Source: Anoxybacter fermentans (lineage in GTDB: Bacteria; Bacillota; Halanaerobiia; DY22613). Taken from it: a stretch of DNA of 64,000 nucleotides. The DNA lies in NCBI RefSeq assembly GCF_003991135.1, contig NZ_CP016379.1:1860001-1924000 (forward strand). The letters are read 5' to 3'. The notes under the pieces are model-generated. The model saw only the letters and a list, made by a program, of their open reading frames with translations, did not search any database and had not been told where the DNA came from. How positions within the stretch are numbered: the first letter of the stretch is position 1; every line of letters starts with the position of its first letter. Positions 2,858 through 55,056 of this stretch are shown in pieces. The position numbers and the translations under genes were made by a program.

Positions 2858-4638
2858 GGGGCTGTCTCAAAAGTAATTAATTACTTTTGGGCATGGCCCC
2901 TTTTTTCATTGTTCATTTTAAATTCATTGAAAATTTTTCTGTTAAGAAAATAAAAACCCATACCTGACATTCTATACTGTTGCCAGTTTAGCCAGGTTAT
3001 GGGCTATACACAGTAAACCCCATTCAATTTTTACTTTCTCAAGGCCACGAAGCAGAAATCTCCGGAATGACCAATTACCTTTGATCCTTCCAAAGACAGA
3101 TTCCGCTTCAATTGCTCTTTGAGAACGGAGTTTCATACCTTTATCGGAACAAAGGTTTTCCTTTACCTTTTGCTTATATTCACGTAATTTAAAATTTATT
3201 CTTATTACTCGATCACCTTTGGCCCTGGTACAATTTTCTTTTAACTCACACTCATCACAATTTTCGCATTTGTAATATCTAATTTGTTTAGTATATCCAT
3301 TTTCAGTCTTAATTTCTTTTGTCTTACAGTAAATGAGTCTTCTTTGAGCAGGACAAATAAACTCGTCGTTTTCTTTATCATACGGCCAGTTTTCTACTTT
3401 AAATATATCATTTTTAAACTTCTTCTTTTGTTCTTTATGAAAAGTATTATACTTAACATAAATATTAGTATTGGCTTTCTCTAAGTAATCATAATTTTCC
3501 TCACTACCATAACCTGAATCAGCTATCACATTTTCCGGAATCTTACCTGTAACTTCTTTTACTTTTTCTAAATGAGGTATTAAGCATCTTGAATCTGCCG
3601 GCCTTTGATGAATACTATAACCAACTACAAACTGATTCTCTGTACCTATCTGAACATTATATGCGGGCTTCAATTGCCCATTTTTCATGTGGTCTTCTTT
3701 CATTCTCATAAAAGTTGCATCAGTATCTGTTTTAGAATAACTGTTTCGTCCATTTAAAATCTCTTCCTGCTGCTCATATTTTTTCATTCGAGGAAGACAT
3801 TTAGTCTTGAGCTCTTTAATTGTTTTCTTTAACTTCTTGTTTTTGGAGTTCTTTTCTAGACGTTCTTCAAGTTCCTTAATTTTTTCTTCGAGTTTCTTTG
3901 AATCTATTTCTTTTCCTTCACCCATCTCCTCCAGGTCATTATCCCCATACAATCTATTCTCTTCTTCGTTGGTTTTCTCAATCTCTTTTAAAAGTTCATT
4001 AATTTTTGCCCTAAGCCTTGCTTTGTACTTCTTTGTCGCTTTTCTCCAGACAAAGCTATATTTGTTTGCATTAGCTTCTATTTTTGTACCATCTAAAAAG
4101 TAATTCTCTAACTTTACATATCCTTCTTCTATAAGAAGTTCCAATACTGATGCAAATACCTCATCAATAACATCTTTCATGATCTCTGATCTGAATCGGT
4201 TTATCGTCCGAAAATCAGGTTTATTGTTACCACTAAGCCACATAAAATAAATATTTTCCCGAAGTGCCTTGGCAATTCGTCTTGATGAATATATTCTCTG
4301 AGTATAGGCATATACTATAACCTTAAGCATCATTTTCGGATGGTAGCTGCTTCTACCCCCACCTTTATATTTTTCAAGCAGGGGTTCAATATTCATCCTT
4401 TCTATAGCTGAATTTACCACCCTTACTAAATGATTCTCAGGAATAAACACATCAAAACTCAAAGGCAACATTGTCTGATTCATATTATATTCAATAAATG
4501 TCTTTTTATTATGGTTTTTCCTCTTCATATTTATATTTTACCATAAAAAAAAGGTGTTGTCTTTATAAAAATTTCTGACAACACCTTTCTTTTAATATTT
4601 ACTTTTGGGGGTTATAAAGGGACTTTTGGGACAGCCCC
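2858..4638 (-). mobile_element. IS1182-type insertion sequence, copy 1
   Basis: Left end GGGGCTGTCTCAAAAGT (2858-2874) and right end ACTTTTGGGACAGCCCC (4622-4638) are inverted repeats, 16 of 17 matching. One 518-codon transposase gene fills the element. Just inside the left end, 2858-2900 forms a second inverted repeat ending in GGCCCC and a T run, a likely terminator for the transposase. The right-hand inverted repeat is followed directly by copy 2. No clear target duplication could be recognised. Confidence 0.9.
2972..4528 (-). CDS. IS1182-family transposase, copy 1
   Basis: 518 residues. The N-terminal DUF772-type domain (about residues 45-125) is followed by a DDE catalytic region: FLDGTKIEAN (Asp146), VIADSGYGSEENYD, and AIEAESVFGRIKG near the C-terminus carry the expected acidic residues. 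A lysine/glutamate-rich coiled insertion spans about residues 165-250, and a small cysteine cluster (CENCDECELKENC) lies near residue 425. The frame is intact, so the enzyme is probably functional. It differs from copy 2 by one residue (Arg instead of Lys after ENCT). Confidence 0.95.
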   Translation of the reverse strand: MKRKNHNKKTFIEYNMNQTMLPLSFDVFIPENHLVRVVNSAIERMNIEPLLEKYKGGGRSSYHPKMMLKVIVYAYTQRIYSSRRIAKALRENIYFMWLSGNNKPDFRTINRFRSEIMKDVIDEVFASVLELLIEEGYVKLENYFLDGTKIEANANKYSFVWRKATKKYKARLRAKINELLKEIEKTNEEENRLYGDNDLEEMGEGKEIDSKKLEEKIKELEERLEKNSKNKKLKKTIKELKTKCLPRMKKYEQQEEILNGRNSYSKTDTDATFMRMKEDHMKNGQLKPAYNVQIGTENQFVVGYSIHQRPADSRCLIPHLEKVKEVTGKIPENVIADSGYGSEENYDYLEKANTNIYVKYNTFHKEQKKKFKNDIFKVENWPYDKENDEFICPAQRRLIYCKTKEIKTENGYTKQIRYYKCENCDECELKENCTRAKGDRVIRINFKLREYKQKVKENLCSDKGMKLRSQRAIEAESVFGRIKGNWSFRRFLLRGLEKVKIEWGLLCIAHNLAKLATV

Positions 4639-6376
4639 TTTTTTCATTGTTCATTTCAAATTCATTGAAAATTTTTCTGTTAAGAAAATAAAAACCCATA
4701 CCTGACATTCTATACTGTTGCCAGTTTAGCCAGGTTATGGGCTATACACAGTAAACCCCATTCAATTTTTACTTTCTCAAGGCCACGAAGCAGAAATCTC
4801 CGGAATGACCAATTACCTTTGATCCTTCCAAAGACAGATTCCGCTTCAATTGCTCTTTGAGAACGGAGTTTCATACCTTTATCGGAACAAAGGTTTTCCT
4901 TTACCTTTTGCTTATATTCACGTAATTTAAAATTTATTCTTATTACTCGATCACCTTTGGCCTTGGTACAATTTTCTTTTAACTCACACTCATCACAATT
5001 TTCGCATTTGTAATATCTAATTTGTTTAGTATATCCATTTTCAGTCTTAATTTCTTTTGTCTTACAGTAAATGAGTCTTCTTTGAGCAGGACAAATAAAC
5101 TCGTCGTTTTCTTTATCATACGGCCAGTTTTCTACTTTAAATATATCATTTTTAAACTTCTTCTTTTGTTCTTTATGAAAAGTATTATACTTAACATAAA
5201 TATTAGTATTAGCTTTCTCTAAGTAATCATAATTTTCCTCACTACCATAACCTGAATCAGCTATCACATTCTCCGGAATCTTACCTGTAACTTCTTTTAC
5301 TTTTTCTAAATGAGGTATTAAGCATCTTGAATCTGCCGGCCTTTGATGAATACTATAACCAACTACAAACTGATTCTCTGTACCTATCTGAACATTATAT
5401 GCGGGCTTCAATTGCCCATTTTTCATGTGGTCTTCTTTCATTCTCATAAAAGTTGCATCAGTATCTGTTTTAGAATAACTGTTTCGTCCATTTAAAATCT
5501 CTTCCTGTTGCTCATATTTTTTCATTCTGGGAAGACATTTAGTCTTGAGCTCTTTAATTGTTTTCTTTAACTTCTTGTTTTTGGAATTCTTTTCTAGACG
5601 TTCTTCAAGTTCCTTAATTTTTTCTTCGAGTTTCTTTGAATCTATTTCTTTTCCTTCACCCATCTCCTCCAGGTCATTATCCCCATACAATCTATTCTCT
5701 TCTTCGTTGGTTTTCTCAATCTCTTTTAAAAGTTCATTAATTTTTGCTCTGAGCCTTGCTTTGTACTTCTTTGTCGCTTTTCTCCAGACAAAGCTATATT
5801 TGTTTGCATTAGCTTCTATTTTTGTACCATCTAAAAAGTAATTCTCTAACTTTACATATCCTTCTTCTATAAGAAGTTCCAATACTGATGCAAATACCTC
5901 ATCAATAACATCTTTCATGATCTCTGATCTGAATCGGTTTATCGTCCGAAAATCAGGTTTATTGTTACCACTAAGCCACATAAAATAAATATTTTCCCGA
6001 AGTGCCTTGGCAATTCGTCTTGATGAATATATTCTCTGAGTATAGGCATATACTATAACCTTAAGCATCATTTTCGGATGGTAGCTGCTTCTACCCCCAC
6101 CTTTATATTTTTCAAGCAGGGGTTCAATATTCATCCTTTCTATAGCTGAATTTACCACCCTTACTAAATGATTTTCAGGAATAAACACATCAAAACTCAA
6201 AGGCAACATTGTCTGATTCATATTATATTCAATAAATGTCTTTTTATTATGGTTTTTCCTCTTCATATTTATATTTTACCATAAAAAAAAGGTGTTGTCT
6301 TTATAAAAATTTCTGACAACACCTTTCTTTTAATATTTACTTTTGGGGGTTATAAAGGGACTTTTGGGACAGCCCC
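4639..6376 (-). mobile_element. IS1182-type insertion sequence, copy 2 (tandem, left end missing)
   Basis: Repeats copy 1 from 2901 onward at a constant 1738-bp offset. It lacks its own left inverted repeat (the equivalent of 2858-2900): its sequence begins immediately after the right inverted repeat of copy 1, which ends in the same CCCC tetranucleotide. The right end ACTTTTGGGACAGCCCC is at 6360-6376. Only a few base changes separate the copies, so the duplication is recent. Confidence 0.88.
4710..6266 (-). CDS. IS1182-family transposase, copy 2
   Basis: 518 residues, identical to copy 1 except for a single Arg-to-Lys change in the cysteine-cluster region; the scattered other base differences are silent. 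All acidic motifs of the DDE domain are retained and the frame is intact. The stop codon and downstream 70 bp are the same as in copy 1, but what follows is the right end of copy 1 and not a left inverted repeat. Confidence 0.95.
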   Translation of the reverse strand: MKRKNHNKKTFIEYNMNQTMLPLSFDVFIPENHLVRVVNSAIERMNIEPLLEKYKGGGRSSYHPKMMLKVIVYAYTQRIYSSRRIAKALRENIYFMWLSGNNKPDFRTINRFRSEIMKDVIDEVFASVLELLIEEGYVKLENYFLDGTKIEANANKYSFVWRKATKKYKARLRAKINELLKEIEKTNEEENRLYGDNDLEEMGEGKEIDSKKLEEKIKELEERLEKNSKNKKLKKTIKELKTKCLPRMKKYEQQEEILNGRNSYSKTDTDATFMRMKEDHMKNGQLKPAYNVQIGTENQFVVGYSIHQRPADSRCLIPHLEKVKEVTGKIPENVIADSGYGSEENYDYLEKANTNIYVKYNTFHKEQKKKFKNDIFKVENWPYDKENDEFICPAQRRLIYCKTKEIKTENGYTKQIRYYKCENCDECELKENCTKAKGDRVIRINFKLREYKQKVKENLCSDKGMKLRSQRAIEAESVFGRIKGNWSFRRFLLRGLEKVKIEWGLLCIAHNLAKLATV

Positions 6377-8928: not shown

Positions 8929-9086
8929 GCTAACACTCCTTCACATCCTCTTACCATATAAATTTATACTTCTCTTTTCAGTGACGAAATTCCTTTAAAT
9001 TTCATGATTAAACTGCAAAAAGCTAATTTTGAGCACCATAGAAATTTTTCGTTAAACCATCTTAATGAGATCGAAGGAGAAATAAG

Positions 9087-9369
9087 GCCTCATCACAGGA
9101 AGTGATGAGCTCAGGTTGTTGAAAAAGGGAGGTGCACATAACTTGCTCCTGCCTAGGAACAGAAAAACTAAATATAATTTCTTCCGCTATCGGACGCTCC
9201 GCCATCCTGGCTGCGCGTCCTAGAAAGTCAAGGCTTCCGCCCTCCTGGCTTTAAGCCTTGACTTATACGCTTCAGAAATTATATTTAGTTTTTCTGGCAG
9301 TGTACAGGCAAGTCTCTAAAAAAGAAAGATTTGTCAACAAGCTCGCCTCATCACAGGAAGTGATGAGCT
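9087..9369. repeat. 25-bp hairpin duplication flanking repeat B
   Basis: Positions 9087-9111 and 9345-9369 are identical over 25 bp. Each contains the apical hairpin CTCATCAC-AGGAA-GTGATGAG of repeat A. The pattern is that of a target duplication created when repeat B entered. Confidence 0.85.
9112..9344 (+). mobile_element. Repeat B, copy 1 (233 bp, non-coding)
   Basis: Ends CAGGTTGTTGAAAAAG and, read inward from the right, GAGCTTGTTGACAAAT: imperfect terminal inverted repeats. Inside, a perfect 19-bp stem (9163-9181 with 9275-9293) encloses two more hairpins; the clearest is AGTCAAGGCTT (9226-9236) with AAGCCTTGACT (9253-9263). No open frame of note. Closely similar to 12410-12643. Interpreted as a miniature mobile element. 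Confidence 0.8.
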
Positions 9370-9498
9370 AATCAAGGGCCAGGAGGGCCCGTTGATTAGT
9401 GTGCCTTATTTCAACTGAGATCGAACTTTAGATGGTTTGAAAATTTCTTTATAAAGCGAAAAATTAGCTTTTTGCAGTGCCCGAAGAGCCTTTTATTC

Positions 9499-12389: not shown

Positions 12390-12663
12390 AAGAGTCCTAA
12401 TCAGCTCTTCAGGTTGTTGAAAAAGGGTAGGTGCACATAACTTGCTCCCATAGAGGAACAAAAAAACTAAATATAATTTTTTCCGCTACCGGACGCTCCG
12501 CCATCCTGGCTGCGCATCCTTAAAAGTCAAGGCTTCCGCCCTCCTGGCTTTAAGCCTTGACTTATACGCTTCAGAAATTATATTTAGTTTTTCCGGCAGT
12601 GCACGGGCAAATCTCTAAAAAAGAAAGTTTTGTCAACAAACTCAAGAGCCCTAATCGACTCTT
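12390..12663. repeat. 20-bp terminator-stem duplication flanking repeat B
   Basis: 12390-12409 and 12644-12663 match at 17 of 20 positions. Each can form a hairpin (AAGAG…CTCTT). The copy at 12644 abuts the stop codon of the DUF4129 gene; only the distal copy is followed, on the minus strand, by the T run expected of a terminator. Confidence 0.7.
12410..12643 (+). mobile_element. Repeat B, copy 2 (234 bp, non-coding)
   Basis: Nearly the same as 9112-9344: begins CAGGTTGTTGAAAAAGGG, contains the ACTAAATATAATTT stem with its complement and the AGTCAAGGCTT/AAGCCTTGACT hairpin, and ends GTTTTGTCAACAAACTC. It lies inside the terminator of the DUF4129 gene and accounts for the otherwise empty 12292-12663 gap. 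Confidence 0.8.
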
Positions 12664-14052
12664 TTAATTATCTTCTTTTTCAGATAAAACTCTCATAATC
12701 TGTTGATAGGCTTTTTCTATCTCCCGTAATTCTTCTGCACCAACCTGCGGACTATAACGTGCCATTTCATAAATTCCGGTTATAGTTCTAATAGGATGGC
12801 CAAACTCAGGAAATTTAGATTCCAACTTTTTCAAATAGTCAGCCGGTGTAAAATATTTTTTAAAGGGAATCCATTTTTGGAATATTTTTATAAAATAGTA
12901 ATAAATTTCTCTAATCTTGATAACATAACTGCTGCCATCGTAAACGGAGAGATTAGATAGCTTTGTACGATTAAATCGACTAACAAAAGATCTGATCATC
13001 TTCAAAAAATCATTTTTCAGTTCTGCCGGATCAAAAACCGATTCCCGTACTTCTTCATATCCTAACTCCTTTTCACGGCGGGGATTAAATTTTTTGATTA
13101 AATAAACCAGAATCAAAAAAGCTGTAAAGATAATCAAAGTCTTAAAGACCCAGGTATAATCCCCAGTAGGTTGAGGATTTTGTAGTCTTTCGGTTATGCT
13201 GTTTAAATCCATAAGTTTATTATCGGATAAACTGTCTTCTTTCGTATTCAGAATAATGTTTTGTAGAAAAGCAATGATTTGATTGAGTAATGGTTCCAAC
13301 ATAATTAATATATAGAAGAGAAGCTTAAGAAAAATCTTCTCTAAAAGCTGCACTGCCCAGACCAGAGGTATTAATAACATTTGCATGGTTTTAATAGAAA
13401 AACCAAAAGTAAAGATGATGGCAAACAATGAAACAAAAATAATAACGATCAGAACCACCAGAATCCAGGAAAGACGATTTTGTTCAGAACCATCTTTAAT
13501 ATCTAAATATTTGTGATAGATCCCCAAAGCTATACCTGAGAGAAAGAAATATAAAATATGGTAAAAAGTAATAGGACATAAAAATCTATCTTTTAAAAAA
13601 AGGGCAAAAATCATTGCAGTTGACCAAACACCGAAATCTGACATAAAATCAATCTCTCCTGAGTTTAATATCTTCTCATATCTTATCATGCCGAGGAGTA
13701 AATATCCTCCCATTATCAATATTCCAAACCAAAAAGGTGAAAATAATGTATTTATCTTCTGCTCTAGTGAAAAACCAGCCAGATAAGTTAAAATCATATC
13801 TGCTCCAATAAAAACCAGTAGAATAAAAAATTTGGCCCAAAACCCCTGATGCAATCTCTGGTTCAGAACTAAAATTCCACTCCCTACTATAATTGCAGCT
13901 CCAAAAAACCAGACTGACTCTTCCTTTATGTAAGTCTCAGTAAAAATACGAAAAAGACCGTAAACCCAGGGAAAGGTTGCTAGAGTATAAAATATGGCAA
14001 AGAATATCCTACCCAGTAGATTCTCCAGCAAATTGAATGTTTTTAATCTCAT
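12664..14052 (-). CDS. Polytopic membrane protein with C-terminal DUF4129-like domain
   Basis: 462 residues. About eight hydrophobic segments in the first 330 residues, a charged linker (NPRREKELGYEEVRES), then a cytosolic-looking tail with YYYFIKIFQKW, FTPADYLKKLESKFPEF and IYEMARYSPQVG, which resembles the DUF4129 domain that ends transglutaminase-like proteins of MoxR operons. Here the transglutaminase domain itself is absent. The start overlaps the DUF58 gene by 44 nt. Its terminator is split by repeat B. Confidence 0.7.
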   Translation of the reverse strand: MRLKTFNLLENLLGRIFFAIFYTLATFPWVYGLFRIFTETYIKEESVWFFGAAIIVGSGILVLNQRLHQGFWAKFFILLVFIGADMILTYLAGFSLEQKINTLFSPFWFGILIMGGYLLLGMIRYEKILNSGEIDFMSDFGVWSTAMIFALFLKDRFLCPITFYHILYFFLSGIALGIYHKYLDIKDGSEQNRLSWILVVLIVIIFVSLFAIIFTFGFSIKTMQMLLIPLVWAVQLLEKIFLKLLFYILIMLEPLLNQIIAFLQNIILNTKEDSLSDNKLMDLNSITERLQNPQPTGDYTWVFKTLIIFTAFLILVYLIKKFNPRREKELGYEEVRESVFDPAELKNDFLKMIRSFVSRFNRTKLSNLSVYDGSSYVIKIREIYYYFIKIFQKWIPFKKYFTPADYLKKLESKFPEFGHPIRTITGIYEMARYSPQVGAEELREIEKAYQQIMRVLSEKEDN

Positions 14053-21596: not shown

Positions 21597-21647
21597 AATA
21601 AATATCCCTCCCAATTTAAGCAAATAACATTATTTTATAATAATTAA

Positions 21648-21853
21648 ACTACAAAAAGCTAATTTTCACCATAGAAATTTTTCGTTAAACCATCTTAGTG
21701 AGATTTCAGTCGAAATAAGGCCTCATCACAAGATGTGATGAGCTAATCAAGGGTCAGGAAGCCCCATTGATTAGTGTGCCTTATTTCGACTGAAATCGAA
21801 CTTTAGATGGTTCAAAAAATTTCTTTTGAAGCGAAAAATTAGCTTTTTGCAAT
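21648..21853 (+). repeat. Repeat A, copy 3 (206 bp)
   Basis: ACTACAAAAAGCTAATTTT at the left and AAATTAGCTTTTTGCAAT at the right; the middle stem GATTTCAGTCGAAATAAGG pairs perfectly with CCTTATTTCGACTGAAATC. Apical hairpins CATCACAAGATGTGATG and a TAATCAAGGG… stem are present. Between the frameshifted MCP-like gene and aspA. Confidence 0.92.
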
Positions 21854-21902
21854 TTAATCATTCAACGTATTTTTAGAAAATCCTTTTCTATTTTTGATTT
21901 TT

Positions 21903-30060: not shown

Positions 30061-30222
30061 AGTCAACCCCTTTTTAAGAACACTTTAAGAACATTAAAAA
30101 TCTGGCTGAAACAAGGAAAGGTTTTAAAACTAGCAAATTGATCTTTATGCAACTAACTTTATTATAATTCCACTTAAATTAACTTATATCCTGCTATAAA
30201 TTATTTTTTAATTTATGATTAT

Positions 30223-30431
30223 ACTGTAAAAAGCTAATTTTGAGCGACATAGAAATTTTTTGCCAAATCATCTTAGCGAGATTTCCGACGAAATAAGGTC
30301 TCATCACAGGAGGTGATGAGCTAATCAAGGGCCAGGATGGCCCTTTGATTAGGAAGCCTTATTTCGGCTGAAATCAAGCTTTAGATGATTCGAAAAATTT
30401 CTCAAGAAGCGAAAAATTAGCTTTTTACAGT
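30223..30431 (+). repeat. Repeat A, copy 6 (209 bp)
   Basis: The outer stem is ACTGTAAAAAGCT with AGCTTTTTACAGT: compared with other copies, C-to-T on the left is matched by G-to-A on the right, so pairing is kept. Apical hairpins CATCACAGGAGGTGATG and CTAATCAAGGGCC…. Between folE and the GH13 gene, both on the minus strand. Confidence 0.93.
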
Positions 30432-30458
30432 TTAACCATTTATAAACTTTAACCTCCA

Positions 30459-53924: not shown

Positions 53925-54005
53925 AGATAAACCTTATTAGTTTATCCGAGGCTGTTAACTTTCTAACTTTGTCAACAACCTGAGATAAACTTTATAAGTT
54001 TATCC
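53925..54005. repeat. Duplicated terminator hairpin with 35-bp repeat B remnant
   Basis: Direct copies of a 23-bp hairpin at 53925-53947 and 53983-54005 (two mismatches). The proximal copy (GATAAACTT/AAGTTTATC arms) lies 10 bp after the stop of the small gene at 54015; the distal copy is followed on the minus strand by a long T run. Between them is 53948-53982. Confidence 0.75.
53948..53982 (-). mobile_element. Repeat B, copy 3: 35-bp internally deleted remnant
   Basis: Read on the minus strand it begins CAGGTTGTTGACAAAG and ends CTTTCAATTG-like TTAACAGCCTC, the same two ends as the full copies with the interior gone. It forms a single hairpin. Small size makes this less certain than the full copies, but the flanking duplication supports it. 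Confidence 0.6.
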
Positions 54006-54527: not shown

Positions 54528-54658
54528 ATTTTATTGGTTTTATTTATTCTCATTATTTATTTTATTTAAAAGGTGAATCAATCACTGCAATTTCCTCTAT
54601 AACAGTTGATCTGATTAAACCCGAAAAGAATTTTCATATTAAAAGCAAATATGGCTAA

Positions 54659-54867
54659 ACTGCAAAAAGCTAATTTTTCGCTCCTTGAGAAATTTTTAGA
54701 ACCATCTAAAGCTCGATTTCAGCCGAAATAAGGCTTCCTAATCAAAGAGCCATCCTGGCCCTTGATTAGCTCATCACCTCCTGTGATGAGGCCTTATTTC
54801 ATCTGAAATCTCGCTAAGATGGTTTAGCGAAAAATTTCTATAGTGCTCAAAATTAGCTTTTTGCAGT
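54659..54867 (-). repeat. Repeat A, copy 15 (209 bp)
   Basis: Full-length with a perfect 19-bp outer stem; apical hairpins TAATCAAAGAGCC…GGCCCTTGATTA and CATCACCTCCTGTGATG. Its right end supplies the stop codon of the gene fragment at 54853-55056. Confidence 0.93.
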
Positions 54868-55056
54868 ATAATCAAATATATTTTTAGAACACAATCTTTG
54901 TTTTAGAATTATATTTAATATTAGGGTAATTCTAATCAAATTTAAAATAAACGAGATTTGACATTCTGTTAAAAATACTACTACCGCTGATATACCAACT
55001 ATCGGTAAAATATCAACAAAATGATGAGCATAACAAGCAATCATTGAGCCAGTTGA
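54853..55056 (-). pseudogene. Fragment of a small membrane protein
   Basis: The frame reads, after an in-frame TAG near 55063, LFSTGSMIACYAHHFVDILP…GISAVVVFLTECQISFIL and ends DYTAKS with a TAA that lies in the end of repeat A copy 15. The ATG at 55042-55044 has no ribosome site and the frame makes sense upstream of it, so the gene lost its 5' part; the repeat has replaced its 3' end. The CYAHHFVDILPIVG pattern with a following hydrophobic helix suggests an integral membrane protein. Family not identified. Confidence 0.45.

Follow-up and report, generated by a model that had tools for sequence, protein, structure and literature searches.

Element B, a 233 bp non-coding element in a 64,000 nucleotide stretch of Anoxybacter fermentans DNA (contig NZ_CP016379.1, positions 1,860,001 to 1,924,000; "the window" below, to whose numbering positions refer unless stated otherwise), lies within a copy of a structured repeat, A, between two identical copies of a hairpin of that repeat. 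It is very likely a miniature inverted-repeat transposable element (MITE) moved by the DDE transposase of the ISBspe1-like clade of the IS1182 family, which takes hairpins as its targets and leaves a copy of the whole hairpin on each side of the insertion.

The two 25-mers directly outside B are both GCCTCATCACAGGAAGTGATGAGCT, with zero mismatches, and fold as a stem-loop (-11.0 kcal/mol) whose dyad axis is in the exact middle of the 25-mer (offset 0.0). The first-pass annotation had taken each of them for an apical hairpin of repeat A, and this hairpin is indeed present once in seven other A copies within the window. These paralogous copies served as a stand-in for the uninterrupted allele. 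When 9005-9111 and 9370-9480 are joined, leaving out B and one 25-mer, the result is a 218 bp A (in agreement with the 210 bp of the first-pass annotation) that aligns to the other copies with no gap at the junction, and has 191 identities to the copy at 54651-54879 and 192 to that at 21640-21861. This gap-free restoration, and the occurrence of B elsewhere with duplications of its own, bear out the earlier reading of B as a real insertion. The score of the 25-mer pair is never matched by overlaps of mismatched flank pairs, and about 0.15% of equal-length flank windows are as symmetric as the 25-mer, indicating that the pair is not due to chance. B was sought in 58 other genomes of the class and found in none of them, so that no B-empty allele could be taken from a relative; a search for related strains by RNase J gave distant matches only (≤55% identical), and Rfam had no match in the window. 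The features discussed here are collected in Table 1.

Table 1. Features of the window related to elements A and B and to IS1182-family elements
Feature	Position	Strand	Remarks
Tandem pair, intact IS1182-family element	2858..6376	-	Ends GGGGCTGTC; in another A copy, no target duplication
Left part of interrupted repeat A	9005..9111	+	Alignment to A copies
Left copy of 25 bp target duplication (apical hairpin of repeat A)	9087..9111	+	
Element B, 233 bp, non-coding	9112..9344	+	Ends CAGGTTGTTGAAAAA / GAGCTTGTTGACAAA, imperfect terminal inverted repeats
Right copy of 25 bp target duplication	9345..9369	+	
Right part of interrupted repeat A	9345..9478	+	Alignment to A copies
Left 20 bp hairpin duplication of second B copy	12390..12409	+	
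Second B copy	12410..12643	+	92% identical
Right 20 bp hairpin duplication of second B copy	12644..12663	+	Follows the stop codon of ORF 12664-14052 (-) directly
Left 23 bp hairpin duplication around relic	53925..53947	+	
35 bp relic of two CAGGYTGTTGACAAA-type terminal repeats	53948..53982	-	
Right 23 bp hairpin duplication around relic	53983..54005	+	

B has the properties of a MITE: it is short, has imperfect inverted ends, contains no ORF of 80 or more amino acids, and is present, whole or in part, at about 40 sites in the genome (one 3.56 Mb contig). Forty stretches with 800 bp flanks were examined, and both B ends could be defined in 32. Thirteen of these 32 placements are flanked by duplications of 17–34 bp, each of which is a whole hairpin (for example ACTATATCTTTTAAAAAGATATAGT, which is perfect, at L023, and AGGTTACTCAAATAGAGTAACCA at L015), and in 12 of the 13 the centre of the duplication is no more than 0.5 base from the hairpin axis. 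Seven others have duplications of 7–15 bp, including L025, where the short duplication is one hairpin arm, and L020, where it is at the hairpin centre. In the remaining 12 no duplication clearly exceeds what mismatched flank pairs give; at L012, L018, L021 and L032 among them, read by eye, one hairpin abuts one B end. Significance was taken from a symmetry test against equal-length flank windows; an earlier dyad-score test was weak for several B copies, where it scored the mutated duplicate. The first-pass annotation had noted a whole hairpin as an unusual size and structure for a transposition footprint. That footprint recurs at these 13 B placements and at 23 of 26 related IS insertions (see below), but does not extend to the seven B copies with short duplications or the 12 with none above chance. 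With most B copies at 74–93% identity to the one in the window, one of the two duplicates may be expected to have decayed, and the intact hairpin beside one end in several of these copies makes it likely that the other hairpin was lost or that insertion was at the hairpin foot.

Several lines of evidence connect B to a particular group of transposases. The B ends, CAGGCTGTTGAAAAA and GAGCTTGTTGACAAA, match the CAGGYTGTTGACAAA ends of L074 and L193–L198. Such B-like CAGGYTGTTGACAAA ends flank both sides of a broken IS1182-family element at 2641648-2643175 of this genome (G000), and are also found at fragments elsewhere in it. Many MITEs share only their ends with the autonomous element. A query of the genome with B gave B-type places only and none in the L074 transposase region, the interior had no match among the autonomous elements found, and G000 contains broken copies but no intact transposase of the ISBspe1-like clade, so the connection between B and these IS elements rests on the ends and on the footprint that they have in common. 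B has both the target type and the whole-hairpin duplication of the autonomous ISBspe1-like elements, and it was probably moved in trans by members of this clade. We note that eight TIR-loop-TIR hairpins of the form GGCTGTTGACAAAGTTAGAAGGTCAACAGCC, often followed by a T-run, are present in the genome (L230–L237; 53948-53982 in the window); this hairpin resembles the left IS end and may act as a terminator inside the element.

A search with the read-through sequence of the broken protein gave intact relatives in genomes G057 and G043, which led to further relatives. These have B-type ends and footprints such as AAGTAACCCAATTTATTGGGTTACTT, AGGGAGGAGATACCTCCTCCCT, AAGGCCGCCGAAATCCGGCGGCCTT and AGGAGCACTTGGTGCTCCT. 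Hairpin duplications are present at 23 of 26 ISBspe1-like insertions from Bacillota, Alpha- and Gammaproteobacteria. Twenty-two of the 26 were found by script and have mismatch-free duplications of 17–34 bp; automatic end-calling gave no result for L195, L204 and L227, and L195, read by eye, is the 23rd (about 20 bp, one mismatch). Compared with equal-length windows of the same flanks, 20 of the 22 duplications are symmetric at p ≤ 0.0011, and the other two, L198 and L210, consist of the hairpin and some downstream bases. The duplications have loops of 3–9 nt and no common primary sequence; A is the first base and T the last in most of them, and most are preceded by an A-run or followed by a T-run, so that they resemble intrinsic terminators. 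The exceptions among the 26 are L203, L216 and L226; the first two have different hairpins on their two sides, as might result from recombination between copies. The scatter in footprint is far smaller among these recent intact relatives than among the B copies.

For four plasmid insertions the flanks were joined with one copy of the duplication (600 bases each) and searched against plasmids. Empty alleles were found for all four sites, each as a single match over all 600 bases: Rhizobium (98.8%), Aminobacter (99.8%), Bacillus (B. subtilis, 100%, four records) and Vibrio (98.2%). Thus a site with no insertion has a single hairpin, and one with an insertion has two.

The tandem pair of intact IS1182-family elements in the window (two copies at a 1738 bp spacing, with one end region in common) encodes a transposase that matches NF033551 with E = 1.4e-143. 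The A copy that it occupies lacks its right half. This GGGGCTGTC-ended group has about 20 copies in the genome, nearly all without target duplication, and thus agrees with IS1272-type elements in its IS1182-family transposase and its lack of duplications; B, which duplicates the stem-loop, does not belong with elements that remove it and leave no duplication. The flanks of the group are typically A-rich on the left and T-rich on the right, and suggest that a terminator hairpin may have been taken out. A tree of 24 transposases separates the duplicating from the non-duplicating elements by a 100/100 branch. This division of the two modes by clade is not absolute, since one GGGGCTGTC-group copy, L064 (G000 880430-881938), is flanked by a 20 bp hairpin duplication, TTTTTAACAGAGTTAAAGAA. 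ISPsp5-like elements (L228 and L229) are a third type with 4 bp duplications, and long branches make their position in the tree uncertain.

Repeat A is itself abundant and structured, with 40 scored copies and 679 first-look candidates genome-wide; its ends are GATTAAACTGCAAAAAGCTAATTTT, and copies in the window include 54651-54879, 30205-30440, 21640-21861 and about ten more. The proposal that A preceded B holds at 9087-9369 but fails as a general order, since at L034 and L038 a copy of A is found inside B. The junction of A with B is identical at these two loci, yet the composites adjoin two different hairpins, so it seems that a B with A inside it moved as one, as would be expected if the B ends suffice for movement. 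The relative age of A and B thus depends on the site. At L034 and L038 the internal A is seemingly flanked by about six AT-rich duplicated bases. At L011, L012, L020, L021, L023, L029 and L035, A often starts no more than some tens of bases from the right flank of B, and it may also favour terminator-adjacent DNA.

The pathway that we favour has a transposase of the ISBspe1-like clade, now present only in broken form in this genome, as the putative mover of B. The enzyme would choose inverted repeats (hairpins) as targets, for the most part intrinsic terminators and at this site the apical hairpin of A, and would recognise them as an extruded cruciform or a single-strand stem-loop and not as a palindromic duplex. 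In the predicted strand-transfer geometry each 3' end of the element would be joined to one target strand, on the 5' side of the hairpin and at a position symmetric with that of the other end. The stagger would then be as long as the hairpin, and gap repair would yield a complete copy of the hairpin at each end of the element. A stagger that appears to follow the hairpin, cuts apparently symmetric about its axis and a lack of common primary sequence are consistent with the "pathway b" discussed below. On the strength of the sequences compared here, it seems probable that this IS1182 clade, which occurs in Bacillota and Proteobacteria, uses secondary structure to measure its target, with symmetric cuts around a terminator hairpin, a duplication length set by the hairpin and not by a fixed protein stagger, and a terminator regenerated on both sides, which would insulate the element and spare its neighbours and which MITEs like B would exploit; the sister clade (IS1272-like, GGGGCTGTC ends) would cut on the other side of the structure and delete it.

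Cuts symmetric about the dyad would also be made by a transposase that, as a symmetric dimer, recognised the palindromic duplex instead of an extruded hairpin and set the stagger by protein spacing, and the A-first, T-last form of most duplications might then be a weak sequence preference. A rigid dimer should give a constant stagger, however, whereas the duplications have no primary sequence in common and vary in length between 17 and 34 bp, and the palindrome is interrupted by 3–9 nt loops; we regard this reading as unlikely. It is quite improbable that the GGGGCTGTC group moved B and that duplications are a minor outcome of its enzyme: the group is intact and abundant here and includes L064 with its duplicated hairpin, but the B ends are far closer to the CAGGYTGTTGACAAA type and nearly all copies of the group lack duplications. 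The intact IS1182 element of the window was rejected as the mover of B on these same two grounds.

Terminators are common between genes and the A repeats are rich in hairpins, and it might be argued that any long duplication in such DNA would include a hairpin by coincidence. This is scarcely credible, since the hairpin lies at the centre of the duplication and marks its limits, equal-length flank windows almost never match them, and the empty alleles show exactly the hairpin to be doubled; the symmetry test and the empty alleles refute coincidence for most sites. Nor, in spite of the many A copies that exist, is there any appreciable likelihood that homologous recombination between A copies, and not transposition, gave rise to B and the repeats beside it, as the other B copies with hairpin duplications duplicate unrelated hairpins outside A and B ends at fixed nucleotides.

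DDE transposases normally make short target duplications of fixed length, set by the spacing of the two active sites; duplications that vary with a hairpin in length and extent suggest that strand transfer acts on a structured target. With a terminator left on each side, the insertion should be of little burden to the host and the element should be protected against read-through; this may be why it has been successful. That IS1182 members target hairpins is already known, and the ISfinder entries for some of them show long direct repeats as well as palindromic targets. We found no prior demonstration of whole-hairpin duplication, or of a MITE that uses it, in the literature searched (which left most subscription papers and ISfinder outside).

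IS1397 and ISPpu10, members of other IS families, have sequence-specific targets, whereas the target of B is structural and is duplicated whole. Like B in A, they insert in palindromic repeat DNA, namely REP/BIME units, as given in titles cited in PMC10433421. B is like other bacterial MITEs, as described in a review (PMC10969869), in being short and non-coding with terminal inverted repeats, many copies and nesting; the text of that review has no mention of IS1182, and whole-hairpin target duplication was not found in the passages covered. ISBspe1-like elements (e.g. on pBpOF4-01, L213) have terminal repeats similar to those of B and the same whole-hairpin duplication, but carry a transposase gene (~1.52–1.6 kb), whereas B is 233 bp long, non-coding and unrelated to them in its interior. 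IS1272 inserts at hairpins, including terminators, with loss of all or part of the stem-loop and no duplication (PMC5678879, PMC4923244), and duplication of the whole stem-loop appears in the IS1272 paper only as a hypothetical "pathway b" (PMC5678879); the insertions described here are natural, polymorphic evidence for this branch, which its authors drew only as a possibility. IS1272 and TnSha1 are like the clade of B in their IS1182-family transposase and in their hairpin or terminator targets without common primary sequence, but IS1272 deletes or replaces the stem-loop whereas B and the ISBspe1-like clade duplicate all of it; as the two clades belong to one family and treat the same kind of target in opposite ways, the mechanism is open to direct test.
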